Source: Phorcus lineatus (Eukaryota; Mollusca; Gastropoda; Trochida; Trochidae). Taken from it: DNA of 64,000 nucleotides. The stretch is taken from positions 1,550,001 to 1,614,000 of the forward strand of contig OV121093.1 of the NCBI GenBank assembly GCA_921293015.1, written 5' to 3'. Positions 1 to 55,701 of the stretch are shown here, one piece after another; within the stretch, counting starts at the first letter, position 1; each line of letters starts with the position of its first letter. The notes under the pieces are model-generated. The model was given only the letters and a program-made list of their open reading frames with translations, ran no database searches and was not told the DNA's origin. Position numbers and translations under genes: made by a program.

Positions 1-2238
1 CCATGAAATGCCAAAGGAATGGTCAGCCGAAACTCGCCACTTGCCGAACGCAAGGGCTTTCGTCTTACCCATGTTGAGACGGGCCCCCGACCCCTTACAA
101 TAACATTCACTCACTTTCAACAAACGTCTCACACTCAACTCATCCGCACATATCCCTGTCCCGTCGTCAGCATAAGCAGATATTTTTGCTTCCTCGTTAA
201 CCCCAGGAATTTTGATGCCCCTTATTAACTTATCACTCCTGATTTTGATAAGAAAAGGTTCCAAAACCAAAACATATAATAAAGGGCTAAGGCTACAGCC
301 TTGCCTTACACTCCTATCCACGGGGAAAATGTCCGAAAAATGCCCATTAACCAATACCCTGCTAGAAATGTTTGTATAAAGTAATTTTACCCACTTAATG
401 AAATTGGTTCCAAAACCATAATTATGTAGGGCCTTGAATAAAAATTCGTGATTTACCCGATCAAAAGCTTTCTCCTGATCGAGGCAAATGAAAGCCACAG
501 AGGTACCTTTCTGCTCTACATAATCTACAACATTCCGAAGAAGATGCAGATTGTCTGCTATTGATCTCCCCTTGATAGAACAAGTCTGATCAGGGTGAAC
601 GATCTCAGCAATAACTGTTGATAGCCGACCTTCTAAAACCCTAGATAATATTTTGTAATCTACATTTAATAAACTAATAGGACGCCAATTACGTAACAAC
701 TGAGGATTATTTTTATCTTTACAAAGAAGAGAAATACATCCCAATTTTTGTGAATTACTTAATGAATCCTGACTCAAAGCCAAGTTATAAAGATGTACTA
801 AGACATCGCCAAATAAATCCCAAAATGCCAAATAGAATTCTTTACTTAACCCGTCCAACCCCGGTGATTTATTATTATCCATACCCTTAAGTGCCCTTAA
901 AGCCTCCTCCTTTGTTACAGCGCCCTCTACACTATCGGCCGAAGCCACATCAAGAGTTGGTAATTCATCAATAAATTCCGAGCAAAAAAAATCATCAATT
1001 TCTTCAGCCGAATATAAATTTGCATAAAAATCTTTACAATGCTTGATGATATCATCATTACAGTTATAACTTTCGTTTCCATTTACAAGGTTCCGAATTG
1101 TTTTATCTCCAGAGTTTTTGAATTCCGATTGAAGAAAGAATTTGGAAGGTTGTTCATTATTTTCCAAAACTTGAACTCTGGAGCGAATTACACTACCTCT
1201 TGCCCTATCAAAATTAATATCATATAATTGTGATTTGATTGCCTTAATTTGGTCAGCATACTCGCCAGGTTTCTGGGCTTCTGCATCAACCAATTCTCTG
1301 TATCGCCTTTGTAACTGGTAAAGTAATTTATTCTTACCGATAGCCACCCTTTTACTATAAGCCGAAATAAACTCCTTGAATTTAACTTTTAGATCGTCCC
1401 AGTCCGAAAGAGATAAAGCATTACTGACATTTAAACCCTCCCAAAAATCACGAAATTGTGATAGAAATGCTTTATCAGACAACAAGGAGTTATTGAATTT
1501 CCAGTAACCAGGCCCCACAGAGATGACATCAAACTGTTCAAAAGTCAGAACACAATAATCATGATCCGAGATCGAACAGGGTTTAACCTCACAACTCTTT
1601 ACCATCGGCATTAAATCAGCAGAAAGGTAAAACCTATCTAACCTACAAGAGACTTTACCACCCCGCCATGTTGTAATTACTTTATTTGGATAAAGAGCCC
1701 GGAAAGGGTCGATTAAATTATAATTTTTGATTAATTTTTGTAAGATGATAGAACCACCTTTCCCAGCTTTGGGATCTCCCCCAATCTTGTCCAAAAGAAT
1801 ATTGTTTATAAAGTTAAAATCGCCCCCAAATACAACATGGCGTCTAGTAACAAAATAATTGTCTAAAGCTGAAAGAAAATCTAGACGATTAGAATAATTT
1901 ACAGGTGCATATATATTGATAAGGCGAAAATGAAGATTAAACATATCAATATCTAAAACAAATAATCTACCATCAAAATCATACTGAAATTTAACAATGC
2001 TGTAATTTAGATGAGATGCTAACAATATTCCAACCCCTCTGGCGTTGCCAGTCCCAAAACTCCAGAAGGCCTTGCATCCAAACTCTCTCTCAACAGTCTG
2101 ACCCTCTTTCACACAAGCAACATGCGTCTCTTGCAAAAATAAAATATCAACTTTCATTCTCTTCCATTCTTCACACAACACTCTCCTTCTGGACCCACCC
2201 CTTATTCCCGCGCAATTTAAAGTAGAGTAGCTAAACAT
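1..2238 (-). CDS. LINE copy 1 ORF2 (partial): APE endonuclease and reverse transcriptase
   Basis: The ORF is open from the ATG at 2238 to the window edge, 746 codons ending at the Trp that is residue 746 in the complete copies. It contains the full APE-type endonuclease (about residues 1-235) and the reverse transcriptase through the YADD box (689-692). The C-terminal domain lies outside the window. At residues 217 and 280 it has Glu and Trp, like copies 2 and 4 and unlike copy 3. One visible difference from copy 2 near 2140 is synonymous (Val). Whether the frame stays open to the normal stop cannot be seen. Confidence 0.93.
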   Translation of the reverse strand, partial: MFSYSTLNCAGIRGGSRRRVLCEEWKRMKVDILFLQETHVACVKEGQTVEREFGCKAFWSFGTGNARGVGILLASHLNYSIVKFQYDFDGRLFVLDIDMFNLHFRLINIYAPVNYSNRLDFLSALDNYFVTRRHVVFGGDFNFINNILLDKIGGDPKAGKGGSIILQKLIKNYNLIDPFRALYPNKVITTWRGGKVSCRLDRFYLSADLMPMVKSCEVKPCSISDHDYCVLTFEQFDVISVGPGYWKFNNSLLSDKAFLSQFRDFWEGLNVSNALSLSDWDDLKVKFKEFISAYSKRVAIGKNKLLYQLQRRYRELVDAEAQKPGEYADQIKAIKSQLYDINFDRARGSVIRSRVQVLENNEQPSKFFLQSEFKNSGDKTIRNLVNGNESYNCNDDIIKHCKDFYANLYSAEEIDDFFCSEFIDELPTLDVASADSVEGAVTKEEALRALKGMDNNKSPGLDGLSKEFYLAFWDLFGDVLVHLYNLALSQDSLSNSQKLGCISLLCKDKNNPQLLRNWRPISLLNVDYKILSRVLEGRLSTVIAEIVHPDQTCSIKGRSIADNLHLLRNVVDYVEQKGTSVAFICLDQEKAFDRVNHEFLFKALHNYGFGTNFIKWVKLLYTNISSRVLVNGHFSDIFPVDRSVRQGCSLSPLLYVLVLEPFLIKIRSDKLIRGIKIPGVNEEAKISAYADDGTGICADELSVRRLLKVSECYCKGSGARLNMGKTKALAFGKWRVSADHSFGISW

Positions 2239-2656
2239 AATATTGATAATTTTGGGTTATAGAAACTAAAATAATATATGGTCTCATGGAGCTAAAATAT
2301 ATATATACAACATGTAATATTTCTACCATTACTATATACAGTACTATAACATAAACCATTCTAAAACTTTATACTCACAACCAGAGAAATCCAAAATAAA
2401 TCCAACATGAAAGCACAATAATCCAACAAGAGAAAACATATATAATCCAAAAATGAAAGCACTTGTTTCCCAAAACACGACACATATATTCCAAGATGAA
2501 TAACACCACATCCAAAAGACATCATATATAATCCCTTGTTTAAATCGCGGATCAGTTTCGAAGTCCGGGGGCATTGCAGTTTGGGTTTTGGGTTCACAAT
2601 CAGTTCTCATAGTCCAGGGGCAGTGTATAGGTCATCAATGATAAGGTAAGTTATTA
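2239..2656 (-). other. LINE copy 1 spacer between ORF1 and ORF2
   Basis: This 418-nt, A/T-rich stretch separates the ORF1 stop from the ORF2 start. The matching spacers are 26411-26828, 41982-42399 and 54045-54462. It holds one small open frame of 88 codons on the coding strand (listed separately) and no other recognisable gene. How ORF2 is translated after such a gap (reinitiation or internal entry) is not visible. Confidence 0.8.
2344..2610 (-). CDS. Possible small hydrophobic ORF between ORF1 and ORF2
   Basis: This 88-codon frame starts 46 nt after the ORF1 stop and ends 105 nt before the ORF2 start. Its middle and C-terminal parts are rich in Phe, Trp, Leu, Val and Cys, with runs that could span a membrane. 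I recognise no family. It is present in all four copies (26516-26782, 42087-42353, 54150-54416), but the copies are too similar for conservation to mean much. One substitution at 2550 is silent in this frame and changes Thr to Ile in an overlapping 78-codon frame, which is weak support at best. It may be a chance ORF. Confidence 0.2.
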   Translation of the reverse strand: MRTDCEPKTQTAMPPDFETDPRFKQGIIYDVFWMWCYSSWNICVVFWETSAFIFGLYMFSLVGLLCFHVGFILDFSGCEYKVLEWFML

Positions 2657-3796
2657 TCATGTTCCACTTGTGGATCCGCTGTCACTCTCCTCGTGATACT
2701 TGGTCACAAAATGCGCCTTCTCTCTTCTCTTAATGTCTCTCGCTGTTCTGTTTCTTGAGGGACTCCTCTTTCTTTGCCGGTTCTGTCTCTCATCCGTATC
2801 CATGATGCAGGCTATAATCTGGTCTCCAGATGCTGAAAACTGACTACGGTCCGTTGTATCTTTTGGGTCTGTCTCTCCAAGGTCCAACACACTGAGGTCC
2901 TTGGGATCTGTTTCCTTTGAGTTGAAAACTTCCGGGTCATTTTCCTTCGGATCCTTTTCCTTCGGGTCCTTGTCCTTAGGGTCCTTATCTTTAGGGTCCT
3001 CGTCCGTTCCGGGGTTACGAGCAGCCCAATCGTCGTGCTTTTCAGCATAATCCTGCTCCATATCCTCGTCCTGTGGTTCGTCAATGTAACGTGTCCTCTC
3101 TTGCCTACTGACGGCGTCGGCATAGGATATCCTTCCAGGACGTTGTACGTTGACTGACATCTGGCTAGCAGGCCTCAAAGTGCTACGACAGTCTCTCCTT
3201 ATGTGGCCTACTTCCTTACATCTTAAACATAAAGGTGGTCTTCCAGCCATTGTCAACAGCAAATCGAACTTATAAGAAGCTGCCGTAACCGAAAACAAGT
3301 GTGGAATATGGTCAATGCTTTCGTGCTGTGTTTCTATTACAACATCATATGTCCCTAGAGGAAGGCCTTCGTCAAAGTCATCCTCTGACCTTTCCTCTTT
3401 CACAGATATGATGGTCCAAAAGTCCTTGAAAATGTAGCTGAGGAACTCTGACCCAAAAGATTCTGGCAGCCAGTGCACACGGAAATTGGTGCGAATTCTG
3501 TCCACAATTGAAACGTCCACAACAAGTCTTGGACTAAGATTTATCCTTCCAATGCCGTGCAATAGATTGGCCGCTTCTACTGTGCTTACAGTAATAAACC
3601 ATTCGTTGGCTTTGCTCCTCTTTGCCATCCTCACTAACTCATTGCCCTTTAAGTAGTCCATGAGAAAACGATGTAACTTGAATCGGTTCATAGAAAATCT
3701 GTCCGGTCCAAAGAAGGTCACTTTAACCACTCGCTTCCTCACAGCATTGTCAACAAGTCCATGTGGTACGGGTCCATTGAAAAACATCTCTGCCAT
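2657..3796 (-). CDS. LINE copy 1 ORF1: gag-like protein with CCHC zinc knuckle
   Basis: This 379-aa protein is inferred to bind element RNA and form the retrotransposition RNP. A mixed alpha/beta N-terminal region (about 20-175) is RRM-like in general look, which is inference. A single CCHC knuckle follows, with Cys190, Cys193, His198 and Cys203 (spacing 2-4-4). After it come a SYADAV motif (225-230), a charged DPK-repeat tract (267-288) and a basic C-terminus with KRSPSR and KRREK. The start at 3796 is chosen because it is the first AUG downstream of the U1 start site and lies in the context CACCATGG. The frame stays open upstream to an ATG at 4063, but that lies beyond the U1 start and is not favoured. 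There are no protease, integrase or LTR signs. Confidence 0.9.
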   Translation of the reverse strand: MAEMFFNGPVPHGLVDNAVRKRVVKVTFFGPDRFSMNRFKLHRFLMDYLKGNELVRMAKRSKANEWFITVSTVEAANLLHGIGRINLSPRLVVDVSIVDRIRTNFRVHWLPESFGSEFLSYIFKDFWTIISVKEERSEDDFDEGLPLGTYDVVIETQHESIDHIPHLFSVTAASYKFDLLLTMAGRPPLCLRCKEVGHIRRDCRSTLRPASQMSVNVQRPGRISYADAVSRQERTRYIDEPQDEDMEQDYAEKHDDWAARNPGTDEDPKDKDPKDKDPKEKDPKENDPEVFNSKETDPKDLSVLDLGETDPKDTTDRSQFSASGDQIIACIMDTDERQNRQRKRSPSRNRTARDIKRREKAHFVTKYHEESDSGSTSGT

Positions 3797-3897
3797 GGTG
3801 AGGGGGGAGTGGTGTCCGAAGACTGTGCACAAAGCACCCACTCGTAGACCTGTATAACAAAAAAAGAGCTCAATACCAGTCCGACACAGAATCACTA

Positions 3898-3919
3898 AGA
3901 GCCTGTGCCAGGTAAGTAT
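3898..3919 (-). pseudogene. U1 snRNA 5' fragment (nt 1-22) upstream of LINE copy 1
   Basis: U1 nt 1-22, including the splice-site-pairing end, are followed by two unmatched bases (3896-3897) and then the element. The promoter side of this unit is intact, so the fragment would form the first bases of any element RNA started at the U1 start site. The 3' remainder of the gene lies outside the window. Confidence 0.93.
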
Positions 3920-4480: not shown

Positions 4481-4644
4481 CAGGGGAGAGCGCGAACGCA
4501 GTCCCCCACACTTATAAATTGCGCACCCGAGTCTTCCACATTTGGGAAGATCGCAGGGGTCAACCAAGCCGAGGTGCAATGGAAAGGTCTCGCCCCGGGC
4601 CCACAGCCTTGCGGATCACTGTAGAGCCTGTGCCAGGTAAGTAT
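4481..4644 (-). ncRNA. U1 snRNA gene, unit A1 (reference copy)
   Basis: The gene makes U1 snRNA, the RNA of the spliceosomal particle that base-pairs with pre-mRNA 5' splice sites. It is 164 nt, the same as human U1. Sense order: ATACTTACCTG end (nt 1-11); stem-loop I (about 17-47) with loop GAUCCGCAAG; stem-loop II with an AUUGCAC loop for U1A; stem-loop III with a CUUCC/GGAAG stem; an Sm-type site AAUUUAUAA; and terminal stem-loop IV with a UUCG loop, ending CCCCUG. Stems I and III differ in sequence from human U1 but still pair, which supports a functional RNA. The loop I and Sm sequences depart from the usual forms. The chosen ends follow the human transcript. Confidence 0.93.
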
Positions 4645-4681
4645 GCTTTTCTGCTGAGCTCCGCCCGACCCCTTGTAGTCG

Positions 4682-4702
4682 CAATTTTCACTCGCCTGGG
4701 TG
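4682..4702 (-). promoter_or_regulatory. Candidate proximal sequence element (PSE) of U1
   Basis: This lies at -38 to -58 from the inferred U1 start. The sense strand reads CACCCAGGCG followed by AGTGAAAATTG. Position and the CACC...GAAAA pattern resemble the SNAPc-bound PSE of metazoan Pol II snRNA genes; the assignment rests on position and a loose match. No TATA box was noticed beside it, as expected for a Pol II snRNA promoter. The element recurs in every unit, with indels in those at 6753-6774 and 62288-62307. Confidence 0.45.
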
Positions 4703-4888
4703 TCGCAGTAAAGGAAATGAGGAAAGCTAAATAGTCGGCAGTCTAGAAGATGCCATATGCGCTGCTCCCTCTTCTTAGACATAAACACAACTTTGTGACA
4801 TAATTTTCTTTCAGATTGGTAGGTTAGCCAGCTCTTTACTTGACATCAGAACGCCCTAAGAGGATGGCATGAAACGTTGCACCTACGT

Positions 4889-4898
4889 CACGTACGTG
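4889..4898 (-). promoter_or_regulatory. Candidate distal element: CACGTACGTG palindrome with CRE-like half site
   Basis: A perfect 10-bp palindrome lies at -245 to -254 from the U1 start, overlapping a TGACGT half-site on the coding strand. Distal enhancers of snRNA genes usually sit near -200 to -250. No octamer (ATGCAAAT) was seen, so the factor would be of bHLH or CREB/ATF type. Function is inference from position and symmetry. Confidence 0.3.
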
Positions 4899-5205
4899 CG
4901 CCGGATGAAGTCGAAACTCTGAGTCCACAGCAGTGGGCGCTTGGAAATGGTATCGGATAGAAATTAAAGTTATTTCAGGAGTGTTTTGCGTCTCGTAATA
5001 AAGACAAAAGGATAGAAACACTTTCAAAGTTGACATAATTTGTAGGTTAAGTGTTTTTTATTGCATTGACTGAATGTAAAGACAACTCAGAGACTTGGAA
5101 GGTGTGCATTTTTTTTATTTAGATCGACAGCTCACAGAGAGAGATGTAACATGAAACATTTGTACAGAGAAGAGCAATTAAAGTTCTCATTTTTAGTTTG
5201 TATAT

Positions 5206-5268
5206 CAGGGGAGAGCGCGAACGCAGTCCCCCACACTTATAAATTGCGCACCCGAGCCAGGTAAGTAT
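5206..5268 (-). pseudogene. U1 snRNA with 101-nt internal deletion, unit A2
   Basis: Only U1 nt 1-12/13 and about 114-164 remain (63 nt). The splice-site-pairing end is joined directly to the Sm site and stem-loop IV; stem-loops I, II and III are lost. The deletion accounts for the 624-bp spacing here. Promoter and 3' box are unchanged, so it may be transcribed, but without the U1-70K and U1A sites it should not form a normal U1 particle. Confidence 0.92.
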
Positions 5269-5829
5269 GCTTTTCTGCTGAGCTCCGCCCGACCCCTTGT
5301 AGTCGCAATTTTCACTCGCCTGGGTGTCGCAGTAAAGGAAATGAGGAAAGCTAAATAGTCGGCAGTCTAGAAGATGCCATATGCGCTGCTCCCTCTTCTT
5401 AGACATAAACACAACTTTGTGACATAATTTTCTTTCAGATTGGTAGGTTAGCCAGCTCTTTACTTGACATCAGAACGCCCTAAGAGGATGGCATGAAACG
5501 TTGCACCTACGTCACGTACGTGCGCCGGATGAAGTCGAAACTCTGAGTCCACAGCAGTGGGCGCTTGGAAATGGTATCGGATAGAAATTAAAGTTATTTC
5601 AGGAGTGTTTTGCGTCTCGTAATAAAGACAAAAGGATAGAAACACTTTCAAAGTTGACATAATTTGTAGGTTAAGTGTTTTTTATTGCATTGACTGAATG
5701 TAAAGACAACTCAGAGACTTGGAAGGTGTGCATTTTTTTTATTTAGATCGACAGCTCACAGAGAGAGATGTAACATGAAACATTTGTACAGAGAAGAGCA
5801 ATTAAAGTTCTCATTTTTAGTTTGTATAT

Positions 5830-5993
5830 CAGGGGAGAGCGCGAACGCAGTCCCCCACACTTATAAATTGCGCACCCGAGTCTTCCACATTTGGGAAGAT
5901 CGCAGGGGTCAACCAAGCCGAGGTGCAATGGAAAGGTCTCGCCCCGGGCCCACAGCCTTGCGGATCACTGTAGAGCCTGTGCCAGGTAAGTAT
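5830..5993 (-). ncRNA. U1 snRNA gene, unit A3
   Basis: 164 nt with no difference from the 4481-4644 reference noticed. It is the first normal unit after the deleted one. Confidence 0.93.
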
Positions 5994-6554
5994 GCTTTTC
6001 TGCTGAGCTCCGCCCGACCCCTTGTAGTCGCAATTTTCACTCGCCTGGGTGTCGCAGTAAAGGAAATGAGGAAAGCTAAATAGTCGGCAGTCTAGAAGAT
6101 GCCATATGCGCTGCTCCCTCTTCTTAGACATAAACACAACTTTGTGACATAATTTTCTTTCAGATTGGTAGGTTAGCCAGCTCTTTACTTGACATCAGAA
6201 CGCCCTAAGAGGATGGCATGAAACGTTGCACCTACGTCACGTACGTGCGCCGGATGAAGTCGAAACTCTGAGTCCACAGCAGTGGGCGCTTGGAAATGGT
6301 ATCGGATAGAAATTAAAGTTATTTCAGGAGTGTTTTGCGTCTCGTAATAAAGACAAAAGGATAGAAACACTTTCAAAGTTGACATAATTTGTAGGTTAAG
6401 TGTTTTTTATTGCATTGACTGAATGTAAAGACAACTCAGAGACTTGGAAGGTGTGCATTTTTTTTATTTAGATCGACAGCTCACAGAGAGAGATGTAACA
6501 TGAAACATTTGTACAGAGAAGAGCAATTAAAGTTCTCATTTTTAGTTTGTATAT

Positions 6555-6715
6555 CAGAGAGCGCGAACGCAGTCCCCCACACTTATAAATTGCGCACCCG
6601 AGTCTTCCACATTTGGGAAGATCGCAGGGGTCAACCAAGCCGAGGTGCAATGGAAAGGTCTCGCCCCGGGCCCACAGCCTTGCGGATCACTGTAGAGCCT
6701 GTGCCAGGTAAGTAT
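6555..6715 (-). ncRNA. U1 snRNA gene, unit A4, 3-nt deletion in stem-loop IV
   Basis: 161 nt. Three Gs on the plus strand (CCC in sense) are missing from the 3' strand of terminal stem-loop IV, shortening the final C-run of the RNA. Its candidate PSE (6753-6774) also has one extra base. The two lesions in one unit suggest a decaying copy or local sequence error. Confidence 0.85.
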
Positions 6716-6752
6716 GCTTTTCTGCTGAGCTCCGCCCGACCCCTTGTAGTCG

Positions 6753-6774
6753 CAATTTTCACTCGCCTGGGGTG
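6753..6774 (-). promoter_or_regulatory. Candidate PSE with one-base insertion, unit A4
   Basis: The run of three Gs is four here, making the element 22 nt instead of 21. The insertion is at about 6768-6771. The effect on SNAPc binding is unknown. Confidence 0.4.
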
Positions 6775-7278
6775 TCGCAGTAAAGGAAATGAGGAAAGCT
6801 AAATAGTCGGCAGTCTAGAAGATGCCATATGCGCTGCTCCCTCTTCTTAGACATAAACACAACTTTGTGACATAATTTTCTTTCAGATTGGTAGGTTAGC
6901 CAGCTCTTTACTTGACATCAGAACGCCCTAAGAGGATGGCATGAAACGTTGCACCTACGTCACGTACGTGCGCCGGATGAAGTCGAAACTCTGAGTCCAC
7001 AGCAGTGGGCGCTTGGAAATGGTATCGGATAGAAATTAAAGTTATTTCAGGAGTGTTTTGCGTCTCGTAATAAAGACAAAAGGATAGAAACACTTTCAAA
7101 GTTGACATAATTTGTAGGTTAAGTGTTTTTTATTGCATTGACTGAATGTAAAGACAACTCAGAGACTTGGAAGGTGTGCATTTTTTTTTATTTAGATCGA
7201 CAGCTCACAGAGAGAGATGTAACATGAAACATTTGTACAGAGAAGAGCAATTAAAGTTCTCATTTTTAGTTTGTATAT

Positions 7279-7443
7279 CAGGGGAGAGCGCGAACGCAGT
7301 CCCCCACACTTATAAATTGCGCACCCGAGTCTTCCACATTTGGGAAGATCGCAGGGGTCAACCAAGCCGAGGTGCAATGGAAAGGTCTCGCCCCGGGCCC
7401 ACAGCCTTGCGGATCACTGTAGAGCCTGTTGCCAGGTAAGTAT
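7279..7443 (-). ncRNA. U1 snRNA gene, unit A5, one-nt insertion
   Basis: 165 nt. One extra base lies just after the splice-site-pairing end, near nt 14 in the short linker before stem-loop I. The unit also has nine instead of eight Ts in its T-run near 7182. Confidence 0.87.
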
Positions 7444-8004
7444 GCTTTTCTGCTGAGCTCCGCCCGACCCCTTGTAGTCGCAATTTTCACTCGCCTGGGT
7501 GTCGCAGTAAAGGAAATGAGGAAAGCTAAATAGTCGGCAGTCTAGAAGATGCCATATGCGCTGCTCCCTCTTCTTAGACATAAACACAACTTTGTGACAT
7601 AATTTTCTTTCAGATTGGTAGGTTAGCCAGCTCTTTACTTGACATCAGAACGCCCTAAGAGGATGGCATGAAACGTTGCACCTACGTCACGTACGTGCGC
7701 CGGATGAAGTCGAAACTCTGAGTCCACAGCAGTGGGCGCTTGGAAATGGTATCGGATAGAAATTAAAGTTATTTCAGGAGTGTTTTGCGTCTCGTAATAA
7801 AGACAAAAGGATAGAAACACTTTCAAAGTTGACATAATTTGTAGGTTAAGTGTTTTTTATTGCATTGACTGAATGTAAAGACAACTCAGAGACTTGGAAG
7901 GTGTGCATTTTTTTTATTTAGATCGACAGCTCACAGAGAGAGATGTAACATGAAACATTTGTACAGAGAAGAGCAATTAAAGTTCTCATTTTTAGTTTGT
8001 ATAT

Positions 8005-8168
8005 CAGGGGAGAGCGCGAACGCAGTCCCCCACACTTATAAATTGCGCACCCGAGTCTTCCACATTTGGGAAGATCGCAGGGGTCAACCAAGCCGAGGTG
8101 CAATGGAAAGGTCTCGCCCCGGGCCCACAGCCTTGCGGATCACTGTAGAGCCTGTGCCAGGTAAGTAT
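8005..8168 (-). ncRNA. U1 snRNA gene, unit A6
   Basis: 164 nt, matching the reference. From here the spacing settles at exactly 725 bp. Confidence 0.93.
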
Positions 8169-8729
8169 GCTTTTCTGCTGAGCTCCGCCCGACCCCTTGT
8201 AGTCGCAATTTTCACTCGCCTGGGTGTCGCAGTAAAGGAAATGAGGAAAGCTAAATAGTCGGCAGTCTAGAAGATGCCATATGCGCTGCTCCCTCTTCTT
8301 AGACATAAACACAACTTTGTGACATAATTTTCTTTCAGATTGGTAGGTTAGCCAGCTCTTTACTTGACATCAGAACGCCCTAAGAGGATGGCATGAAACG
8401 TTGCACCTACGTCACGTACGTGCGCCGGATGAAGTCGAAACTCTGAGTCCACAGCAGTGGGCGCTTGGAAATGGTATCGGATAGAAATTAAAGTTATTTC
8501 AGGAGTGTTTTGCGTCTCGTAATAAAGACAAAAGGATAGAAACACTTTCAAAGTTGACATAATTTGTAGGTTAAGTGTTTTTTATTGCATTGACTGAATG
8601 TAAAGACAACTCAGAGACTTGGAAGGTGTGCATTTTTTTTATTTAGATCGACAGCTCACAGAGAGAGATGTAACATGAAACATTTGTACAGAGAAGAGCA
8701 ATTAAAGTTCTCATTTTTAGTTTGTATAT

Positions 8730-8893
8730 CAGGGGAGAGCGCGAACGCAGTCCCCCACACTTATAAATTGCGCACCCGAGTCTTCCACATTTGGGAAGAT
8801 CGCAGGGGTCAACCAAGCCGAGGTGCAATGGAAAGGTCTCGCCCCGGGCCCACAGCCTTGCGGATCACTGTAGAGCCTGTGCCAGGTAAGTAT
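8730..8893 (-). ncRNA. U1 snRNA gene, unit A7
   Basis: Matches the reference gene; 725 bp from both neighbours. Confidence 0.93.
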
Positions 8894-9454
8894 GCTTTTC
8901 TGCTGAGCTCCGCCCGACCCCTTGTAGTCGCAATTTTCACTCGCCTGGGTGTCGCAGTAAAGGAAATGAGGAAAGCTAAATAGTCGGCAGTCTAGAAGAT
9001 GCCATATGCGCTGCTCCCTCTTCTTAGACATAAACACAACTTTGTGACATAATTTTCTTTCAGATTGGTAGGTTAGCCAGCTCTTTACTTGACATCAGAA
9101 CGCCCTAAGAGGATGGCATGAAACGTTGCACCTACGTCACGTACGTGCGCCGGATGAAGTCGAAACTCTGAGTCCACAGCAGTGGGCGCTTGGAAATGGT
9201 ATCGGATAGAAATTAAAGTTATTTCAGGAGTGTTTTGCGTCTCGTAATAAAGACAAAAGGATAGAAACACTTTCAAAGTTGACATAATTTGTAGGTTAAG
9301 TGTTTTTTATTGCATTGACTGAATGTAAAGACAACTCAGAGACTTGGAAGGTGTGCATTTTTTTTATTTAGATCGACAGCTCACAGAGAGAGATGTAACA
9401 TGAAACATTTGTACAGAGAAGAGCAATTAAAGTTCTCATTTTTAGTTTGTATAT

Positions 9455-9618
9455 CAGGGGAGAGCGCGAACGCAGTCCCCCACACTTATAAATTGCGCAC
9501 CCGAGTCTTCCACATTTGGGAAGATCGCAGGGGTCAACCAAGCCGAGGTGCAATGGAAAGGTCTCGCCCCGGGCCCACAGCCTTGCGGATCACTGTAGAG
9601 CCTGTGCCAGGTAAGTAT
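9455..9618 (-). ncRNA. U1 snRNA gene, unit A8
   Basis: Matches the reference gene; 725 bp from both neighbours. Confidence 0.93.
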
Positions 9619-10179
9619 GCTTTTCTGCTGAGCTCCGCCCGACCCCTTGTAGTCGCAATTTTCACTCGCCTGGGTGTCGCAGTAAAGGAAATGAGGAAAG
9701 CTAAATAGTCGGCAGTCTAGAAGATGCCATATGCGCTGCTCCCTCTTCTTAGACATAAACACAACTTTGTGACATAATTTTCTTTCAGATTGGTAGGTTA
9801 GCCAGCTCTTTACTTGACATCAGAACGCCCTAAGAGGATGGCATGAAACGTTGCACCTACGTCACGTACGTGCGCCGGATGAAGTCGAAACTCTGAGTCC
9901 ACAGCAGTGGGCGCTTGGAAATGGTATCGGATAGAAATTAAAGTTATTTCAGGAGTGTTTTGCGTCTCGTAATAAAGACAAAAGGATAGAAACACTTTCA
10001 AAGTTGACATAATTTGTAGGTTAAGTGTTTTTTATTGCATTGACTGAATGTAAAGACAACTCAGAGACTTGGAAGGTGTGCATTTTTTTTATTTAGATCG
10101 ACAGCTCACAGAGAGAGATGTAACATGAAACATTTGTACAGAGAAGAGCAATTAAAGTTCTCATTTTTAGTTTGTATAT

Positions 10180-10343
10180 CAGGGGAGAGCGCGAACGCAG
10201 TCCCCCACACTTATAAATTGCGCACCCGAGTCTTCCACATTTGGGAAGATCGCAGGGGTCAACCAAGCCGAGGTGCAATGGAAAGGTCTCGCCCCGGGCC
10301 CACAGCCTTGCGGATCACTGTAGAGCCTGTGCCAGGTAAGTAT
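10180..10343 (-). ncRNA. U1 snRNA gene, unit A9
   Basis: Matches the reference gene; 725 bp from both neighbours. Confidence 0.93.
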
Positions 10344-22636: not shown

Positions 22637-22664
22637 TTTTTTTTTTTTTTTGTTTTAGATAAAG

Positions 22665-38209: not shown

Positions 38210-38223
38210 TTTTTTTTTTTTTT

Positions 38224-45659: not shown

Positions 45660-45823
45660 CAGGGGAGAGCGCGAACGCAGTCCCCCACACTTATAAATTG
45701 CGCACCCGAGTCTTCCACATTTGGGAAGATCGCAGGGGTCAACCAAGCCGAGGTGCAATGGAAAGGTCTTGCCCCGGGCCCACAGCCTTGCGGATCACTG
45801 TAGAGCCTGTGCCAGGTAAGTAT
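45660..45823 (-). ncRNA. U1 snRNA gene, unit C3, G54A variant
   Basis: The substitution at 45770 changes nt 54 from G to A at the base of stem-loop II, outside the AUUGCAC U1A-binding loop. Effect unknown. Confidence 0.92.
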
Positions 45824-46384
45824 GCTTTTCTGCTGAGCTCCGCCCGACCCCTTGTAGTCGCAATTTTCACTCGCCTGGGTGTCGCAGTAAAGGAAATGAG
45901 GAAAGCTAAATAGTCGGCAGTCTAGAAGATGCCATATGCGCTGCTCCCTCTTCTTAGACATAAACACAACTTTGTGACATAATTTTCTTTCAGATTGGTA
46001 GGTTAGCCAGCTCTTTACTTGACATCAGAACGCCCTAAGAGGATGGCATGAAACGTTGCACCTACGTCACGTACGTGCGCCGGATGAAGTCGAAACTCTG
46101 AGTCCACAGCAGTGGGCGCTTGGAAATGGTATCGGATAGAAATTAAAGTTATTTCAGGAGTGTTTTGCGTCTCGTAATAAAGACAAAAGGATAGAAACAC
46201 TTTCAAAGTTGACATAATTTGTAGGTTAAGTGTTTTTTATTGCATTGACTGAATGTAAAGACAACTCAGAGACTTGGAAGGTGTGCATTTTTTTTATTTA
46301 GATCGACAGCTCACAGAGAGAGATGTAACATGAAACATTTGTACAGAGAAGAGCAATTAAAGTTCTCATTTTTAGTTTGTATAT

Positions 46385-46548
46385 CAGGGGAGAGCGCGAA
46401 CGCAGTCCCCCACACTTATAAATTGCGCACCCGAGTCTTCCACATTTGGGAAGATCGCAGGGGTCAACCAAGCCGAGGTGCAATGGAAAGGTCTCGCCCC
46501 GGGCCCACAGCCTTGCGGATCACTGTAGAGCCTGTGCCAGGTAAGTAT
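46385..46548 (-). ncRNA. U1 snRNA gene, unit C4
   Basis: Matches the reference gene; 725-bp spacing. Confidence 0.93.
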
Positions 46549-47109
46549 GCTTTTCTGCTGAGCTCCGCCCGACCCCTTGTAGTCGCAATTTTCACTCGCC
46601 TGGGTGTCGCAGTAAAGGAAATGAGGAAAGCTAAATAGTCGGCAGTCTAGAAGATGCCATATGCGCTGCTCCCTCTTCTTAGACATAAACACAACTTTGT
46701 GACATAATTTTCTTTCAGATTGGTAGGTTAGCCAGCTCTTTACTTGACATCAGAACGCCCTAAGAGGATGGCATGAAACGTTGCACCTACGTCACGTACG
46801 TGCGCCGGATGAAGTCGAAACTCTGAGTCCACAGCAGTGGGCGCTTGGAAATGGTATCGGATAGAAATTAAAGTTATTTCAGGAGTGTTTTGCGTCTCGT
46901 AATAAAGACAAAAGGATAGAAACACTTTCAAAGTTGACATAATTTGTAGGTTAAGTGTTTTTTATTGCATTGACTGAATGTAAAGACAACTCAGAGACTT
47001 GGAAGGTGTGCATTTTTTTTATTTAGATCGACAGCTCACAGAGAGAGATGTAACATGAAACATTTGTACAGAGAAGAGCAATTAAAGTTCTCATTTTTAG
47101 TTTGTATAT

Positions 47110-47273
47110 CAGGGGAGAGCGCGAACGCAGTCCCCCACACTTATAAATTGCGCACCCGAGTCTTCCACATTTGGGAAGATCGCAGGGGTCAACCAAGCCG
47201 AGGTGCAATGGAAAGGTCTCGCCCCGGGCCCACAGCCTTGCGGATCACTGTAGAGCCTGTGCCAGGTAAGTAT
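47110..47273 (-). ncRNA. U1 snRNA gene, unit C5
   Basis: Matches the reference gene; 725-bp spacing. Confidence 0.93.
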
Positions 47274-47834
47274 GCTTTTCTGCTGAGCTCCGCCCGACCC
47301 CTTGTAGTCGCAATTTTCACTCGCCTGGGTGTCGCAGTAAAGGAAATGAGGAAAGCTAAATAGTCGGCAGTCTAGAAGATGCCATATGCGCTGCTCCCTC
47401 TTCTTAGACATAAACACAACTTTGTGACATAATTTTCTTTCAGATTGGTAGGTTAGCCAGCTCTTTACTTGACATCAGAACGCCCTAAGAGGATGGCATG
47501 AAACGTTGCACCTACGTCACGTACGTGCGCCGGATGAAGTCGAAACTCTGAGTCCACAGCAGTGGGCGCTTGGAAATGGTATCGGATAGAAATTAAAGTT
47601 ATTTCAGGAGTGTTTTGCGTCTCGTAATAAAGACAAAAGGATAGAAACACTTTCAAAGTTGACATAATTTGTAGGTTAAGTGTTTTTTATTGCATTGACT
47701 GAATGTAAAGACAACTCAGAGACTTGGAAGGTGTGCATTTTTTTTATTTAGATCGACAGCTCACAGAGAGAGATGTAACATGAAACATTTGTACAGAGAA
47801 GAGCAATTAAAGTTCTCATTTTTAGTTTGTATAT

Positions 47835-47998
47835 CAGGGGAGAGCGCGAACGCAGTCCCCCACACTTATAAATTGCGCACCCGAGTCTTCCACATTTGGG
47901 AAGATCGCAGGGGTCAACCAAGCCGAGGTGCAATGGAAAGGTCTCGCCCCGGGCCCACAGCCTTGCGGATCACTGTAGAGCCTGTGCCAGGTAAGTAT
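47835..47998 (-). ncRNA. U1 snRNA gene, unit C6
   Basis: Matches the reference gene; 725-bp spacing. Confidence 0.93.
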
Positions 47999-48559
47999 GC
48001 TTTTCTGCTGAGCTCCGCCCGACCCCTTGTAGTCGCAATTTTCACTCGCCTGGGTGTCGCAGTAAAGGAAATGAGGAAAGCTAAATAGTCGGCAGTCTAG
48101 AAGATGCCATATGCGCTGCTCCCTCTTCTTAGACATAAACACAACTTTGTGACATAATTTTCTTTCAGATTGGTAGGTTAGCCAGCTCTTTACTTGACAT
48201 CAGAACGCCCTAAGAGGATGGCATGAAACGTTGCACCTACGTCACGTACGTGCGCCGGATGAAGTCGAAACTCTGAGTCCACAGCAGTGGGCGCTTGGAA
48301 ATGGTATCGGATAGAAATTAAAGTTATTTCAGGAGTGTTTTGCGTCTCGTAATAAAGACAAAAGGATAGAAACACTTTCAAAGTTGACATAATTTGTAGG
48401 TTAAGTGTTTTTTATTGCATTGACTGAATGTAAAGACAACTCAGAGACTTGGAAGGTGTGCATTTTTTTTATTTAGATCGACAGCTCACAGAGAGAGATG
48501 TAACATGAAACATTTGTACAGAGAAGAGCAATTAAAGTTCTCATTTTTAGTTTGTATAT

Positions 48560-48723
48560 CAGGGGAGAGCGCGAACGCAGTCCCCCACACTTATAAATTG
48601 CGCACCCGAGTCTTCCACATTTGGGAAGATCGCAGGGGTCAACCAAGCCGAGGTGCAATGGAAAGGTCTCGCCCCGGGCCCACAGCCTTGCGGATCACTG
48701 TAGAGCCTGTGCCAGGTAAGTAT
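48560..48723 (-). ncRNA. U1 snRNA gene, unit C7
   Basis: Matches the reference gene; 725-bp spacing. Confidence 0.93.
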
Positions 48724-49284
48724 GCTTTTCTGCTGAGCTCCGCCCGACCCCTTGTAGTCGCAATTTTCACTCGCCTGGGTGTCGCAGTAAAGGAAATGAG
48801 GAAAGCTAAATAGTCGGCAGTCTAGAAGATGCCATATGCGCTGCTCCCTCTTCTTAGACATAAACACAACTTTGTGACATAATTTTCTTTCAGATTGGTA
48901 GGTTAGCCAGCTCTTTACTTGACATCAGAACGCCCTAAGAGGATGGCATGAAACGTTGCACCTACGTCACGTACGTGCGCCGGATGAAGTCGAAACTCTG
49001 AGTCCACAGCAGTGGGCGCTTGGAAATGGTATCGGATAGAAATTAAAGTTATTTCAGGAGTGTTTTGCGTCTCGTAATAAAGACAAAAGGATAGAAACAC
49101 TTTCAAAGTTGACATAATTTGTAGGTTAAGTGTTTTTTATTGCATTGACTGAATGTAAAGACAACTCAGAGACTTGGAAGGTGTGCATTTTTTTTATTTA
49201 GATCGACAGCTCACAGAGAGAGATGTAACATGAAACATTTGTACAGAGAAGAGCAATTAAAGTTCTCATTTTTAGTTTGTATAT

Positions 49285-49448
49285 CAGGGGAGAGCGCGAA
49301 CGCAGTCCCCCACACTTATAAATTGCGCACCCGAGTCTTCCACATTTGGGAAGATCGCAGGGGTCAACCAAGCCGAGGTGCAATGGAAAGGTCTCGCCCC
49401 GGGCCCACAGCCTTGCGGATCACTGTAGAGCCTGTGCCAGGTAAGTAT
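49285..49448 (-). ncRNA. U1 snRNA gene, unit C8
   Basis: Matches the reference gene; 725-bp spacing. Confidence 0.93.
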
Positions 49449-50009
49449 GCTTTTCTGCTGAGCTCCGCCCGACCCCTTGTAGTCGCAATTTTCACTCGCC
49501 TGGGTGTCGCAGTAAAGGAAATGAGGAAAGCTAAATAGTCGGCAGTCTAGAAGATGCCATATGCGCTGCTCCCTCTTCTTAGACATAAACACAACTTTGT
49601 GACATAATTTTCTTTCAGATTGGTAGGTTAGCCAGCTCTTTACTTGACATCAGAACGCCCTAAGAGGATGGCATGAAACGTTGCACCTACGTCACGTACG
49701 TGCGCCGGATGAAGTCGAAACTCTGAGTCCACAGCAGTGGGCGCTTGGAAATGGTATCGGATAGAAATTAAAGTTATTTCAGGAGTGTTTTGCGTCTCGT
49801 AATAAAGACAAAAGGATAGAAACACTTTCAAAGTTGACATAATTTGTAGGTTAAGTGTTTTTTATTGCATTGACTGAATGTAAAGACAACTCAGAGACTT
49901 GGAAGGTGTGCATTTTTTTTATTTAGATCGACAGCTCACAGAGAGAGATGTAACATGAAACATTTGTACAGAGAAGAGCAATTAAAGTTCTCATTTTTAG
50001 TTTGTATAT

Positions 50010-50173
50010 CAGGGGAGAGCGCGAACGCAGTCCCCCACACTTATAAATTGCGCACCCGAGTCTTCCACATTTGGGAAGATCGCAGGGGTCAACCAAGCCG
50101 AGGTGCAATGGAAAGGTCTCGCCCCGGGCCCACAGCCTTGCGGATCACTGTAGAGCCTGTGCCAGGTAAGTAT
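50010..50173 (-). ncRNA. U1 snRNA gene, unit C9
   Basis: Matches the reference gene; 725-bp spacing. Confidence 0.93.
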
Positions 50174-50734
50174 GCTTTTCTGCTGAGCTCCGCCCGACCC
50201 CTTGTAGTCGCAATTTTCACTCGCCTGGGTGTCGCAGTAAAGGAAATGAGGAAAGCTAAATAGTCGGCAGTCTAGAAGATGCCATATGCGCTGCTCCCTC
50301 TTCTTAGACATAAACACAACTTTGTGACATAATTTTCTTTCAGATTGGTAGGTTAGCCAGCTCTTTACTTGACATCAGAACGCCCTAAGAGGATGGCATG
50401 AAACGTTGCACCTACGTCACGTACGTGCGCCGGATGAAGTCGAAACTCTGAGTCCACAGCAGTGGGCGCTTGGAAATGGTATCGGATAGAAATTAAAGTT
50501 ATTTCAGGAGTGTTTTGCGTCTCGTAATAAAGACAAAAGGATAGAAACACTTTCAAAGTTGACATAATTTGTAGGTTAAGTGTTTTTTATTGCATTGACT
50601 GAATGTAAAGACAACTCAGAGACTTGGAAGGTGTGCATTTTTTTTATTTAGATCGACAGCTCACAGAGAGAGATGTAACATGAAACATTTGTACAGAGAA
50701 GAGCAATTAAAGTTCTCATTTTTAGTTTGTATAT

Positions 50735-50898
50735 CAGGGGAGAGCGCGAACGCAGTCCCCCACACTTATAAATTGCGCACCCGAGTCTTCCACATTTGGG
50801 AAGATCGCAGGGGTCAACCAAGCCGAGGTGCAATGGAAAGGTCTCGCCCCGGGCCCACAGCCTTGCGGATCACTGTAGAGCCTGTGCCAGGTAAGTAT
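50735..50898 (-). ncRNA. U1 snRNA gene, unit C10
   Basis: Matches the reference gene; last whole gene before LINE copy 4. Confidence 0.93.
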
Positions 50899-51458
50899 GC
50901 TTTTCTGCTGAGCTCCGCCCGACCCCTTGTAGTCGCAATTTTCACTCGCCTGGGTGTCGCAGTAAAGGAAATGAGGAAAGCTAAATAGTCGGCAGTCTAG
51001 AAGATGCCATATGCGCTGCTCCCTCTTCTTAGACATAAACACAACTTTGTGACATAATTTTCTTTCAGATTGGTAGGTTAGCCAGCTCTTTACTTGACAT
51101 CAGAACGCCCTAAGAGGATGGCATGAAACGTTGCACCTACGTCACGTACGTGCGCCGGATGAAGTCGAAACTCTGAGTCCACAGCAGTGGGCGCTTGGAA
51201 ATGGTATCGGATAGAAATTAAAGTTATTTCAGGAGTGTTTTGCGTCTCGTAATAAAGACAAAAGGATAGAAACACTTTCAAAGTTGACATAATTTGTAGG
51301 TTAAGTGTTTTTTATTGCATTGACTGAATGTAAAGACAACTCAGAGACTTGGAAGGTGTGCATTTTTTTTATTTAGATCGACAGCTCACAGAGAGAGATG
51401 TAACATGAAACATTTGTACAGAGAAGAGCAATTAAAGTTCTCATTTTTAGTTTGTATA

Positions 51459-54044
51459 TCAGGGGAGAGCGCGAACATGAACAAAATTAACACCGCCAAA
51501 TTCTTTAACATTATATAAAACAGTGCGAGCTAAAGGCTCATACAAATGGGAACCCCAGAAATAATCAAAGCAAATACGGGTGGTAAGATCTATATACGGT
51601 TTTGGCATGTCCAAGACAGAGGCAACATACCAAAGCTTAGACATAGCCATCACCTTAACTATTAGCGATTTACCATAATACGAGAGATACCTATCCCTAA
51701 ACTTAAAATTTAGAACCCCGTGCAATTTTGTAATAATTTCGTGCCAGTTATCGTCAGGAGTAATACTATTGCCAAATTTTACCCCAAGAATTTTACATGA
51801 ATCGGGCCATGAAATGCCAAAGGAATGGTCAGCCGAAACTCGCCACTTGCCGAACGCAAGGGCTTTCGTCTTACCCATGTTGAGACGGGCCCCCGACCCC
51901 TTACAATAACATTCACTCACTTTCAACAAACGTCTCACACTCAACTCATCCGCACATATCCCTGTCCCGTCGTCAGCATAAGCAGATATTTTTGCTTCCT
52001 CGTTAACCCCAGGAATTTTGATGCCCCTTATTAACTTATCACTCCTGATTTTGATAAGAAAAGGTTCCAAAACCAAAACATATAATAAAGGGCTAAGGCT
52101 ACAGCCTTGCCTTACACTCCTATCCACGGGGAAAATGTCCGAAAAATGCCCATTAACCAATACCCTGCTAGAAATGTTTGTATAAAGTAATTTTACCCAC
52201 TTAATGAAATTGGTTCCAAAACCATAATTATGTAGGGCCTTGAATAAAAATTCGTGATTTACCCGATCAAAAGCTTTCTCCTGATCGAGGCAAATGAAAG
52301 CCACAGAGGTACCTTTCTGCTCTACATAATCTACAACATTCCGAAGAAGATGCAGATTGTCTGCTATTGATCTCCCCTTGATAGAACAAGTCTGATCAGG
52401 GTGAACGATCTCAGCAATAACTGTTGATAGCCGACCTTCTAAAACCCTAGATAATATTTTGTAATCTACATTTAATAAACTAATAGGACGCCAATTACGT
52501 AACAACTGAGGATTATTTTTATCTTTACAAAGAAGAGAAATACATCCCAATTTTTGTGAATTACTTAATGAATCCTGACTCAAAGCCAACTTATAAAGAT
52601 GTACTAAGACATCGCCAAATAAATCCCAAAATGCCAAATAGAATTCTTTACTTAACCCGTCCAACCCCGGTGATTTATTATTATCCATACCCTTAAGTGC
52701 CCTTAAAGCCTCCTCCTTTGTTACAGCGCCCTCTACACTATCGGCCGAAGCCACATCAAGAGTTGGTAATTCATCAATAAATTCCGAGCAAAAAAAATCA
52801 TCAATTTCTTCAGCCGAATATAAATTTGCATAAAAATCTTTACAATGCTTGATGATATCATCATTACAGTTATAACTTTCGTTTCCATTTACAAGGTTCC
52901 GAATTGTTTTATCTCCAGAGTTTTTGAATTCCGATTGAAGAAAGAATTTGGAAGGTTGTTCATTATTTTCCAAAACTTGAACTCTGGAGCGAATTACACT
53001 ACCTCTTGCCCTATCAAAATTAATATCATATAATTGTGATTTGATTGCCTTAATTTGGTCAGCATACTCGCCAGGTTTCTGGGCTTCTGCATCAACCAAT
53101 TCTCTGTATCGCCTTTGTAACTGGTAAAGTAATTTATTCTTACCGATAGCCACCCTTTTACTATAAGCCGAAATAAACTCCTTGAATTTAACTTTTAGAT
53201 CGTCCCAGTCCGAAAGAGATAAAGCATTACTGACATTTAAACCCTCCCAAAAATCACGAAATTGTGATAGAAATGCTTTATCAGACAACAAGGAGTTATT
53301 GAATTTCCAGTAACCAGGCCCCACAGAGATGACATCAAACTGTTCAAAAGTCAGAACACAATAATCATGATCCGAGATCGAACAGGGTTTAACCTCACAA
53401 CTCTTTACCATCGGCATTAAATCAGCAGAAAGGTAAAACCTATCTAACCTACAAGAGACTTTACCACCCCGCCATGTTGTAATTACTTTATTTGGATAAA
53501 GAGCCCGGAAAGGGTCGATTAAATTATAAGTTTTGATTAATTTTTGTAAGATGATAGAACCACCTTTCCCAGCTTTGGGATCTCCCCCAATCTTGTCCAA
53601 AAGAATATTGTTTATAAAGTTAAAATCGCCCCCAAATACAACATGGCGTCTAGTAACAAAATAATTGTCTAAAGCTGAAAGAAAATCTAGACGATTAGAA
53701 TAATTTACAGGTGCATATATATTGATAAGGCGAAAATGAAGATTAAACATATCAATATCTAAAACAAATAATCTACCATCAAAATCATACTGAAATTTAA
53801 CAATGCTGTAATTTAGATGAGATGCTAACAATATTCCAACCCCTCTGGCGTTGCCAGTCCCAAAACTCCAGAAGGCCTTGCATCCAAACTCTCTCTCAAC
53901 AGTCTGACCCTCTTTCACACAAGCAACATGCGTCTCTTGCAAAAATAAAATATCAACTTTCATTCTCTTCCATTCTTCACACAACACTCTCCTTCTGGAC
54001 CCACCCCTTATTCCCGCGCAATTTAAAGTAGAGTAGCTAAACAT
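51459..54044 (-). pseudogene. LINE copy 4 ORF2, C-terminally truncated and fused to U1 sequence
   Basis: The frame keeps residues 1-857 of ORF2, then four codons read from U1 stem-loop IV, and stops at 51459-51461 (861 codons). Endonuclease and reverse transcriptase motifs are all present, but the last 293 residues, including the Cys1010/Cys1013/His1022/Cys1027 zinc motif, are gone. Copy-specific residues are Thr172 and Lys485 (Asn in copies 2 and 3). With no 3' UTR or tail the copy should not mobilise its own RNA normally, though a protein could be made. Confidence 0.93.
51460..51476 (-). pseudogene. U1 snRNA 3' remnant (nt 148-164) fused to LINE copy 4
   Basis: Only the last 17 nt of U1 remain, followed without a tail by ORF2 sequence. 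The last four plus-strand bases, GAAC (51473-51476), fit both U1 and the element, so the breakpoint lies within this microhomology. Confidence 0.93.
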
Positions 54045-55701
54045 AATATTGATAATTTTGGGTTATAGAAACTAAAATAATATATGGTCTCATGGAGCTA
54101 AAATATATATATACAACATGTAATATTTCTACCATTACTATATACAGTACTATAACATAAACCATTCTAAAACTTTATACTCACAACCAGAGAAATCCAA
54201 AATAAATCCAACATGAAAGCACAATAATCCAACAAGAGAAAACATATATAATCCAAAAATGAAAGCACTTGTTTCCCAAAACACGACACATATATTCCAA
54301 GATGAATAACACCACATCCAAAAGACATCATATATAATCCCTTGTTTAAATCGCGGGTCAGTTTCGAAGTCCGGGGGCATTGCAGTTTGGGTTTTGGGTT
54401 CACAATCAGTTCTCATAGTCCAGGGGCAGTGTATAGGTCATCAATGATAAGGTAAGTTATTATCATGTTCCACTTGTGGATCCGCTGTCACTCTCCTCGT
54501 GATACTTGGTCACAAAATGCGCCTTCTCTCTTCTCTTAATGTCTCTCGCTGTTCTGTTTCTTGAGGGACTCCTCTTTCTTTGCCGGTTCTGTCTCTCATC
54601 CGTATCCATGATGCAGGCTATAATCTGGTCTCCAGATGCTGAAAACTGACTACGGTCCGTTGTATCTTTTGGGTCTGTCTCTCCAAGGTCCAACACACTG
54701 AGGTCCTTGGGATCTGTTTCCTTTGAGTTGAAAACTTCCGGGTCATTTTCCTTCGGATCCTTTTCCTTCGGGTCCTTGTCCTTAGGGTCCTTATCTTTAG
54801 GGTCCTCGTCCGTTCCGGGGTTACGAGCAGCCCAATCGTCGTGCTTTTCAGCATAATCCTGCTCCATATCCTCGTCCTGTGGTTCGTCAATGTAACGTGT
54901 CCTCTCTTGCCTACTGACGGCGTCGGCATAGGATATCCTTCCAGGACGTTGTACGTTGACTGACATCTGGCTAGCAGGCCTCAAAGTGCTACGACAGTCT
55001 CTCCTTATGTGGCCTACTTCCTTACATCTTAAACATAAAGGTGGTCTTCCAGCCATTGTCAACAGCAAATCGAACTTATAAGAAGCTGCCGTAACCGAAA
55101 ACAAGTGTGGAATATGGTCAATGCTTTCGTGCTGTGTTTCTATTACAACATCATATGTCCCTAGAGGAAGGCCTTCGTCAAAGTCATCCTCTGACCTTTC
55201 CTCTTTCACAGATATGATGGTCCAAAAGTCCTTGAAAATGTAGCTGAGGAACTCTGACCCAAAAGATTCTGGCAGCCAGTGCACACGGAAATTGGTGCGA
55301 ATTCTGTCCACAATTGAAACGTCCACAACAAGTCTTGGACTAAGATTTATCCTTCCAATGCCGTGCAATAGATTGGCCGCTTCTACTGTGCTTACAGTAA
55401 TAAACCATTCGTTGGCTTTGCTCCTCTTTGCCATCCTCACTAACTCATTGCCCTTTAAGTAGTCCATGAGAAAACGATGTAACTTGAATCGGTTCATAGA
55501 AAATCTGTCCGGTCCAAAGAAGGTCACTTTAACCACTCGCTTCCTCACAGCATTGTCAACAAGTCCATGTGGTACGGGTCCATTGAAAAACATCTCTGCC
55601 ATGGTGAGGGGGGAGTGGTGTCCGAAGACTGTGCACAAAGCACCCACTCGTAGACCTGTATAACAAAAAAAGAGCTCAATACCAGTCCGACACAGAATCA
55701 C
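51473..55701 (-). mobile_element. U1-inserted LINE copy 4 (3' end deleted)
   Basis: The 5' junction (after U1 nt 24), 99-nt 5' UTR, ORF1 and spacer match copy 2. The 3' side ends inside ORF2: about 1.2 kb of element, the A tail and U1 nt 33 to about 147 are missing, roughly 1.3 kb judged against copy 3. Such 3' loss is unlike the 5' truncation typical of LINE insertion, so it is best read as a later deletion. Confidence 0.95.
54463..55602 (-). CDS. LINE copy 4 ORF1: gag-like CCHC protein
   Basis: 379 aa, intact and without a noticed amino-acid difference from the other copies, in a truncated element. It could supply ORF1 protein in trans if transcribed from the intact U1 promoter upstream, but the 3' deletion leaves no AATAAA of its own. 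Confidence 0.92.
   Translation of the reverse strand: MAEMFFNGPVPHGLVDNAVRKRVVKVTFFGPDRFSMNRFKLHRFLMDYLKGNELVRMAKRSKANEWFITVSTVEAANLLHGIGRINLSPRLVVDVSIVDRIRTNFRVHWLPESFGSEFLSYIFKDFWTIISVKEERSEDDFDEGLPLGTYDVVIETQHESIDHIPHLFSVTAASYKFDLLLTMAGRPPLCLRCKEVGHIRRDCRSTLRPASQMSVNVQRPGRISYADAVSRQERTRYIDEPQDEDMEQDYAEKHDDWAARNPGTDEDPKDKDPKDKDPKEKDPKENDPEVFNSKETDPKDLSVLDLGETDPKDTTDRSQFSASGDQIIACIMDTDERQNRQRKRSPSRNRTARDIKRREKAHFVTKYHEESDSGSTSGT

Follow-up and report, generated by a model that had tools for sequence, protein, structure and literature searches.

Several mobile elements have settled on particular sites in multicopy or spliceosomal RNA genes. Among long interspersed nuclear elements (LINEs), L1 inserts in a dispersed manner, shows hardly any preference for sequence apart from the nick site and is not known to be confined to one RNA gene; Mutsu and Tx1L belong to the target-specific LINEs of the Tx1 group, and their targets are 5S ribosomal RNA (rRNA) and the Tx1D transposon, respectively. 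In the small nuclear RNA (snRNA) genes of the spliceosome, Keno, a LINE with an apurinic (AP) endonuclease, occupies a site in U2 in frogs, fish, lancelet and hydra, and Utopia, a non-LTR (long terminal repeat) element with a restriction-like endonuclease that also targets U2, is strictly confined to a low-copy snRNA gene in some hosts and is reported to occur in tandem copies (PMC4640811). Dada-U1 is a DDE DNA transposon inserted at a CTGCGAA-type site of U1 with a target-site duplication of 6–8 bp (PMC3706591). Here we describe a LINE that lies in U1 genes of the gastropod Phorcus lineatus, in a stretch of 64,000 nucleotides (C25:1550001–1614000, within a 74-contig assembly of 957.8 Mb) that we refer to in full as the window. 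We hold with high confidence that this element, which has two open reading frames (ORFs) predicted to supply an AP-type endonuclease and an L1-like reverse transcriptase (RT), is site-specific for the loop of stem-loop I of U1, and that confidence extends to a model in which it would nick this loop, use the U1 promoter and carry a U1 leader on its RNA.

The window is one array of tandem U1 genes, to which all 60 of its Rfam matches belong (RF00003), on the minus strand throughout and mostly spaced 725 bp apart. Four LINE copies interrupt these genes, with the following features in window coordinates.

4481..63698, minus strand: tandem U1 snRNA array, the target, with 164-nt genes in a unit of about 725 bp (60 matches to RF00003)
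1..3897, minus strand: LINE copy 1, 5′ part; the element continues beyond the window to a 3′ end at contig position 1548459
3898..3919, minus strand: U1 nt 1–22 leader of copy 1, the U1 5′ end running into the LINE (junction form CTCTTAGTGATT)
22505..22636, minus strand: U1 nt 33–164 after the A tail of copy 2 (Rfam and junction comparison)
22637..28067, minus strand: LINE copy 2, 5431 bp, both ends present and both ORFs open
22958..26428, minus strand: ORF2 of copy 2, an open frame of 1156 aa matching Pfam AP-type endonuclease PF03372, reverse transcriptase PF00078 and zf-RVT PF13966
26829..27968, minus strand: ORF1 of copy 2 (379 aa), which weakly matches a CCHC zinc knuckle
27969..28043, minus strand: 5′ leader module of copy 2, comprising a pyrimidine tract, CAG and a predicted three-way-junction RNA, and ending at the ORF1 ATG
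28068..28091, minus strand: U1 nt 1–24 leader of copy 2, the U1 5′ end running into the LINE (junction form CTCTACGTGATT)
38078..38209, minus strand: U1 nt 33–164 after the A tail of copy 3 (Rfam and junction comparison)
38210..43624, minus strand: LINE copy 3, both ends present, with a 13-bp deletion in the 5′ untranslated region (5′UTR)
43625..43648, minus strand: U1 nt 1–24 leader of copy 3, the U1 5′ end running into the LINE
51473..55701, minus strand: LINE copy 4, 3′ part deleted, with a GTTC microhomology join to the U1 3′ end at about 51473
55702..55725, minus strand: U1 nt 1–24 leader of copy 4, the U1 5′ end running into the LINE

The original prediction, made from the letters alone, had placed all four copies in U1 genes in one orientation and at one spot, and we find the same: U1 5′ ends meet the LINE at 3919, 28091, 43648 and 55725, preceded as predicted by U1 nt 1–22 in copy 1 and nt 1–24 in copies 2–4. 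The two 3′ junctions within the window also fall where they had been put, at nt 33 (GCAAGG), with U1 resuming at 22636 and 38209, and beyond the window U1 resumes after copy 1 at the same GCAAGG. On the 5′ side the claim can be refined, because by eye the U1 match extends to about nt 30–32 with a change of 1–3 nt at nt 23–25, which argues for an insertion close to blunt at GTGATCC/GCAAGG (slash, point of insertion). As read from these junctions, the element enters U1 between nt 32 and 33, in the stem-loop I loop. The loop I sequence in the U1 genes of the window and of stretch L028 is GUGAUCCGCAAGG, unlike the GAUCACGAAG of most animals.

A scan for junctions across 255 kb of surroundings, window included, found 165 identical full U1 genes and 195 U1 leaders, 21 of which are broken by the LINE, in every case in the sense orientation to U1; these elements are thus parasites of the splicing machinery's own genes. 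Nineteen of the 21 copies have a readable 3′ end, at which U1 resumes at nt 33 in 17 and at nt 34 in one, and the last runs into another element; the two others are window copy 4, with its GTTC-joined deletion, and a final copy that leaves the stretch analysed. The prediction had called chance placement very unlikely, and we judge 17 of 19 junctions at one base of a unit of about 725 bp to be far beyond chance, though without a formal calculation. Five junction forms occur at the 5′ end (ACGTGATT in 11 copies, TTAGTGATT in five, ACAGTGATCC and TTAGTGATCAGC in two each, and one decayed). A genome-wide search for exact matches to U1 nt 1–22 gave 205, of which those listed lie on C25 only, 192 of them inside the 255 kb. 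With separately originated copies at one nucleotide, a precise 3′ junction and rarity elsewhere, the family has the properties of site-specific LINEs.

Its coding content is of a known sort. The endonuclease and RT domains of ORF2 match Pfam at E values of 1.4e-8 (PF03372) and 8.7e-39 (PF00078), and among solved structures the best match is human L1 ORF2p (E 1.7e-68), with R2 far weaker; an AP-type endonuclease with an L1-group RT is the combination found in the Keno/Tx1 clade. The predicted term 'Tx1 group' fits these domain matches as well as the U2-inserted sister families described below. In ORF1 the zinc knuckle (Pfam zf-CCHC, E 0.0018) is below the Pfam cut-off, and no L1-type ORF1 domain was matched in Pfam at E up to 1; five of nine ORF1 relatives are named, every one from ticks. 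In copy 3, 13 bp of the conserved 5′UTR are gone, yet both of its ORFs are open.

Many copies outside U1 genes, which the original prediction had listed as evidence that would count against it, did not appear among the ORF2 matches scored. In a search of the whole genome with ORF2, in which the best 40 of 10329 candidates were scored (41 rows), identity was at least 92% in 22 rows (21 copies), every one of them inside the U1 array on C25, and then dropped to 41–43%. Pulling the other way, a 601-bp query from the 3′ end returned 39 rows of which 19 were in the U1 array and 20 elsewhere, at 65–93% identity. Six stretches that cover eight of these 20 outside rows contain element pieces of at most 879 bp each, and neither BLAST nor Rfam found U1 beside the fragments in those eight rows; in one of the six stretches, on C39, the piece abuts the 5′ end of a second old element of similar kind. 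Given the outside rows, we regard U1 specificity as strong, not absolute.

The families at 41–43% ORF2 identity lie in other snRNA genes, of U2 on C39 and of U4 on C5. On C39, the five 3′ junctions examined all read ..AAG/TATCTGTTCTTATCAGC of U2 and belong to three or more 3′ ends that differ in sequence, in an array with a unit of about 1339 bp that houses several LINE families in two blocks of opposite orientation; the position ..G/TATCTGTTCTTATCAGC in U2 corresponds to the Keno site. Filled U4 genes on C5 read ..GGTACCATAGCC (or CAAAGCC)/element/GGTATATCCGAGGCG, which puts the insertion between U4 nt ~28 and ~34 (for example, at C5:37749001–37757500). Empty sites are found for both, 49 in U2 and five in U4 (..GGTACCATAGCCAATGAGGTATATCC or close variants, four of them within the same C5 stretch), and support U2 and U4 as the targets; at an edge stretch of the U4 array (L039), neither Rfam nor pattern searches found a U4 piece. 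A search with an outside protein, P0001, gave 41 rows (best 40 of 10501), all in U1, U2 or U4 regions, with flanks examined at some.

ORF2 identity is 67% between the U2 and U4 families and 42% between each of them and the U1 family. A wider tree, built mostly from unnamed proteins, pairs the U1 family with Patella caerulea P0142 (46% identity; Shimodaira–Hasegawa approximate likelihood-ratio test (SH-aLRT) 99) and sets the U2/U4 clade apart, in an open fork. An exclusive clade of the U1, U2 and U4 families with P0003, present in a first tree (SH-aLRT 95), was not recovered with more rows. A single genome thus offers related AP-endonuclease LINEs at three fixed targets, with two of the families still this close in ORF2, as a natural comparison for how targets are chosen, which matters both for the biology of LINEs and for programmable gene insertion. 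Relatives also turned up on two contigs of metagenome-assembled genomes (MAGs), one of which (L045) ends at the U2 site and the other of which (L046) has no snRNA; both are presumably host DNA contamination. The MAG with the U2-site relative is named as a Taylorina symbiont, Taylorina being a lucinid clam. Neither the ORF2 query nor alignment revealed relatives in viral contigs.

As far as the sequence itself goes, then, the U1 family is an element with one target, one orientation and one site; its 3′ end is precise and A-tailed, its subfamilies have diverged while under selection, and it has sisters in U2 and U4. To account for this, we propose that the endonuclease would nick the bottom strand at U1 32/33, where synthesis of cDNA on the tailed RNA would be primed. 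The element lies in the sense direction within the first ~45 nt of an RNA polymerase II (Pol II) snRNA gene, as do its U2 and U4 sisters, and for this reason probably borrows the snRNA promoter. Its RNA would begin at the U1 promoter, so that the 5′ end would carry U1 nt 1 to about nt 30, and would end at the element's own AATAAA; annealing of this U1 leader to the upstream half of the target could then produce the clean 5′ join. Junction variants are common to diverged bodies: TTAGTGAT is found in subfamilies A and C, and ACGTGATT both in A and in D. This sharing suggests that the RNA brings the U1 leader along with it.

The 5′ module offers a possible link between such a transcript and translation. 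A pyrimidine-rich tract and CAG stand directly before a conserved UCUAC in nine of nine leaders from the U1, U2 and U4 families, all chosen for having UCUAC, and the pyrimidine fraction of the tract is 0.65–0.80 compared with means of 0.39–0.52 for the remaining YAG sites in those pieces. The first ATG follows 53–72 nt after the leader motif in ten of 11 leaders, an old C39 copy being the exception. A three-way junction is the predicted lowest-energy fold in leaders of U1 subfamilies A, B and C, in U2_a, U2_b and U2_c, and in both U4 leaders, with compensatory changes between families in P1 and P3 (arms aligned by hand; one U–U mismatch in U2_b); the leader of the decayed U1 copy folds poorly. 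It is possible, on these features, that the module is a splice acceptor with a structured 5′UTR: the pyrimidine tract and CAG may accept a splice, leading to translation from the structured 5′UTR just before ORF1. The common leader thus suggests a testable route by which a promoterless LINE could obtain mRNA from an snRNA promoter. Three leaders of the U2 family (L029:111, L029:6959 and L041:1841) hold, by eye, AAGCGAT, the reverse complement of U2 nt 1–7, which could allow base pairing between the leader RNA and the 5′ end of U2.

Several points count against this part of our interpretation. We infer promoter use and splicing, and the tract's rank among other YAG sites varies between 0 of 66 and 23 of 139. 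U2_d and the old C39 copy have a different lowest-energy fold, and the 5′ module gives weak folding z-scores, from −2.4 to +0.8 (mononucleotide shuffles, 11 leaders). U1 nt 1–22 contain no GT, which makes cis-splicing out of the leader itself unlikely, and any trans-splicing in the host is hypothetical.

In a different account, the module would be a ribozyme or translation element with no splice acceptor, and the U1 leader just the target half left by a near-blunt join. Ribozymes at the 5′ end are used by R2-type elements, several families here have a similar predicted fold, and the pyrimidine tract is not extreme in every one. The regular placement of tract and CAG in the nine leaders speaks for an acceptor, however, and the sharing of junction variants by diverged subfamilies for a leader carried on the RNA; no Rfam family was matched in window positions 27700–28120 at E up to 1. 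We think this account of the module somewhat unlikely.

Taking the families together, a broader proposal is that a single LINE lineage has become a specialist of the spliceosomal snRNA genes transcribed by Pol II. Its distinct U1, U2 and U4 families would occupy fixed sites, each in the sense direction within the first ~45 nt, sharing a borrowed snRNA promoter and a conserved, splice-acceptor-like structured leader that would convert an snRNA-initiated transcript into LINE mRNA. U1 and U4 would then be new LINE targets and the U2/U4 pair the product of a recent target switch. We advance this only tentatively, as something a little short of an even prospect.

Against the described systems, the closest likeness is to Keno, also an AP-type endonuclease LINE in a spliceosomal snRNA gene. 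Comparison with Keno is by its description, from which the window family differs in lying in U1 and in having only about 42% ORF2 identity to the U2 family of its own genome; with only its sister families in U2, it is Keno-like, not Keno. Utopia is likewise a non-LTR element confined to an snRNA gene, but its restriction-like endonuclease contrasts with the AP-type PF03372 domain found here. Dada-U1 shares specificity for U1 genes, whereas our element is of the RT/endonuclease type and inserts elsewhere in U1, at GTGATCC/GCAAGG. The best structural match of ORF2, the two ORFs and the A tail recall L1, from which the family is set apart by the confinement to one U1 array of its rows at 92% identity or more, among the best 40 candidates, and by the lack of a Pfam match to an L1-type ORF1 domain at E up to 1. 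With Mutsu and Tx1L it shares target specificity, though the targets differ.

What we take to be new is the U1 target for site-specific LINEs, in an otherwise known sort of element, and the observation is real. The family might already be catalogued, for instance in Repbase, as a Tx1/Keno type, leaving only this genome new, as could be supposed from Keno's presence at the U2 site in the animals named above (PMC4640811). We found no LINE specific for U1 or U4 described in the literature searched, Repbase being outside that search, and consider an earlier cataloguing improbable.

The copies themselves fall into subfamilies. All four window copies belong to subfamily A, whose members are 0–35 substitutions apart; overall divergence from A is 3.1% for D, 5.0% for C and 11.5% for B, and B and C differ by 15%. 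These differences are patchy. For B they amount to about 40% in the 5′UTR and ORF1 but to 0–3% across the 3′ end and the greater part of ORF2, whereas for C and D they rise to 16% towards the 3′ side of ORF2. Among eight of the 21 copies, the ratio of nonsynonymous to synonymous substitution rates (dN/dS) in ORF2 is 0.08–0.30 in all 28 pairs, which indicates descent from working elements under purifying selection. Over 200 bp upstream of U1, 18 of 19 copies match the reference unit exactly and the nineteenth has four differences. In one nested case, the A tail of a copy adjoins the 5′ end of a further diverged U1-type element with no U1 leader between them; the 5′ junction of that type lets its pre-insertion site be inferred as GTGATCA/GCAGC, a look-alike of GTGATCC/GCAAGG.

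An origin without targeting, in which unequal crossing-over and gene conversion multiplied a single U1 insertion along the array, would accord with the homogeneity of the array, with the orientation and site common to all copies and with two copies (1531322 and 1519376) that have no substitutions in the body and the same tail length, but the diverged, mosaic subfamilies under purifying selection beside identical flanks, the five 5′ junction forms and varied A tails, the element–element join at a look-alike site and the related families at fixed U2 and U4 sites make it so improbable that we reject it. Array duplication has very likely added further copies to those inserted by targeting. The origin of all copies by recombination from one insertion, which the original prediction had raised as a possible objection, is thus dismissed for the family, and some duplication is still possible among the four window copies taken alone.

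The array and its surroundings show further irregularities. The U1 repeat unit shortens from about 725 bp in the window to 699 bp beyond it, and at C25 ~1428254–1430783 one unit is about 1.8 kb longer than the rest, apparently because something else has inserted into its spacer. At its low edge (C25 1406606–1415302) the array holds decayed and nested LINE copies with stop codons. Beyond the array stretch analysed, at C25:1745101–1746800, several truncated element pieces lie head to tail, followed by a piece of another element's ORF1 at 50% identity.

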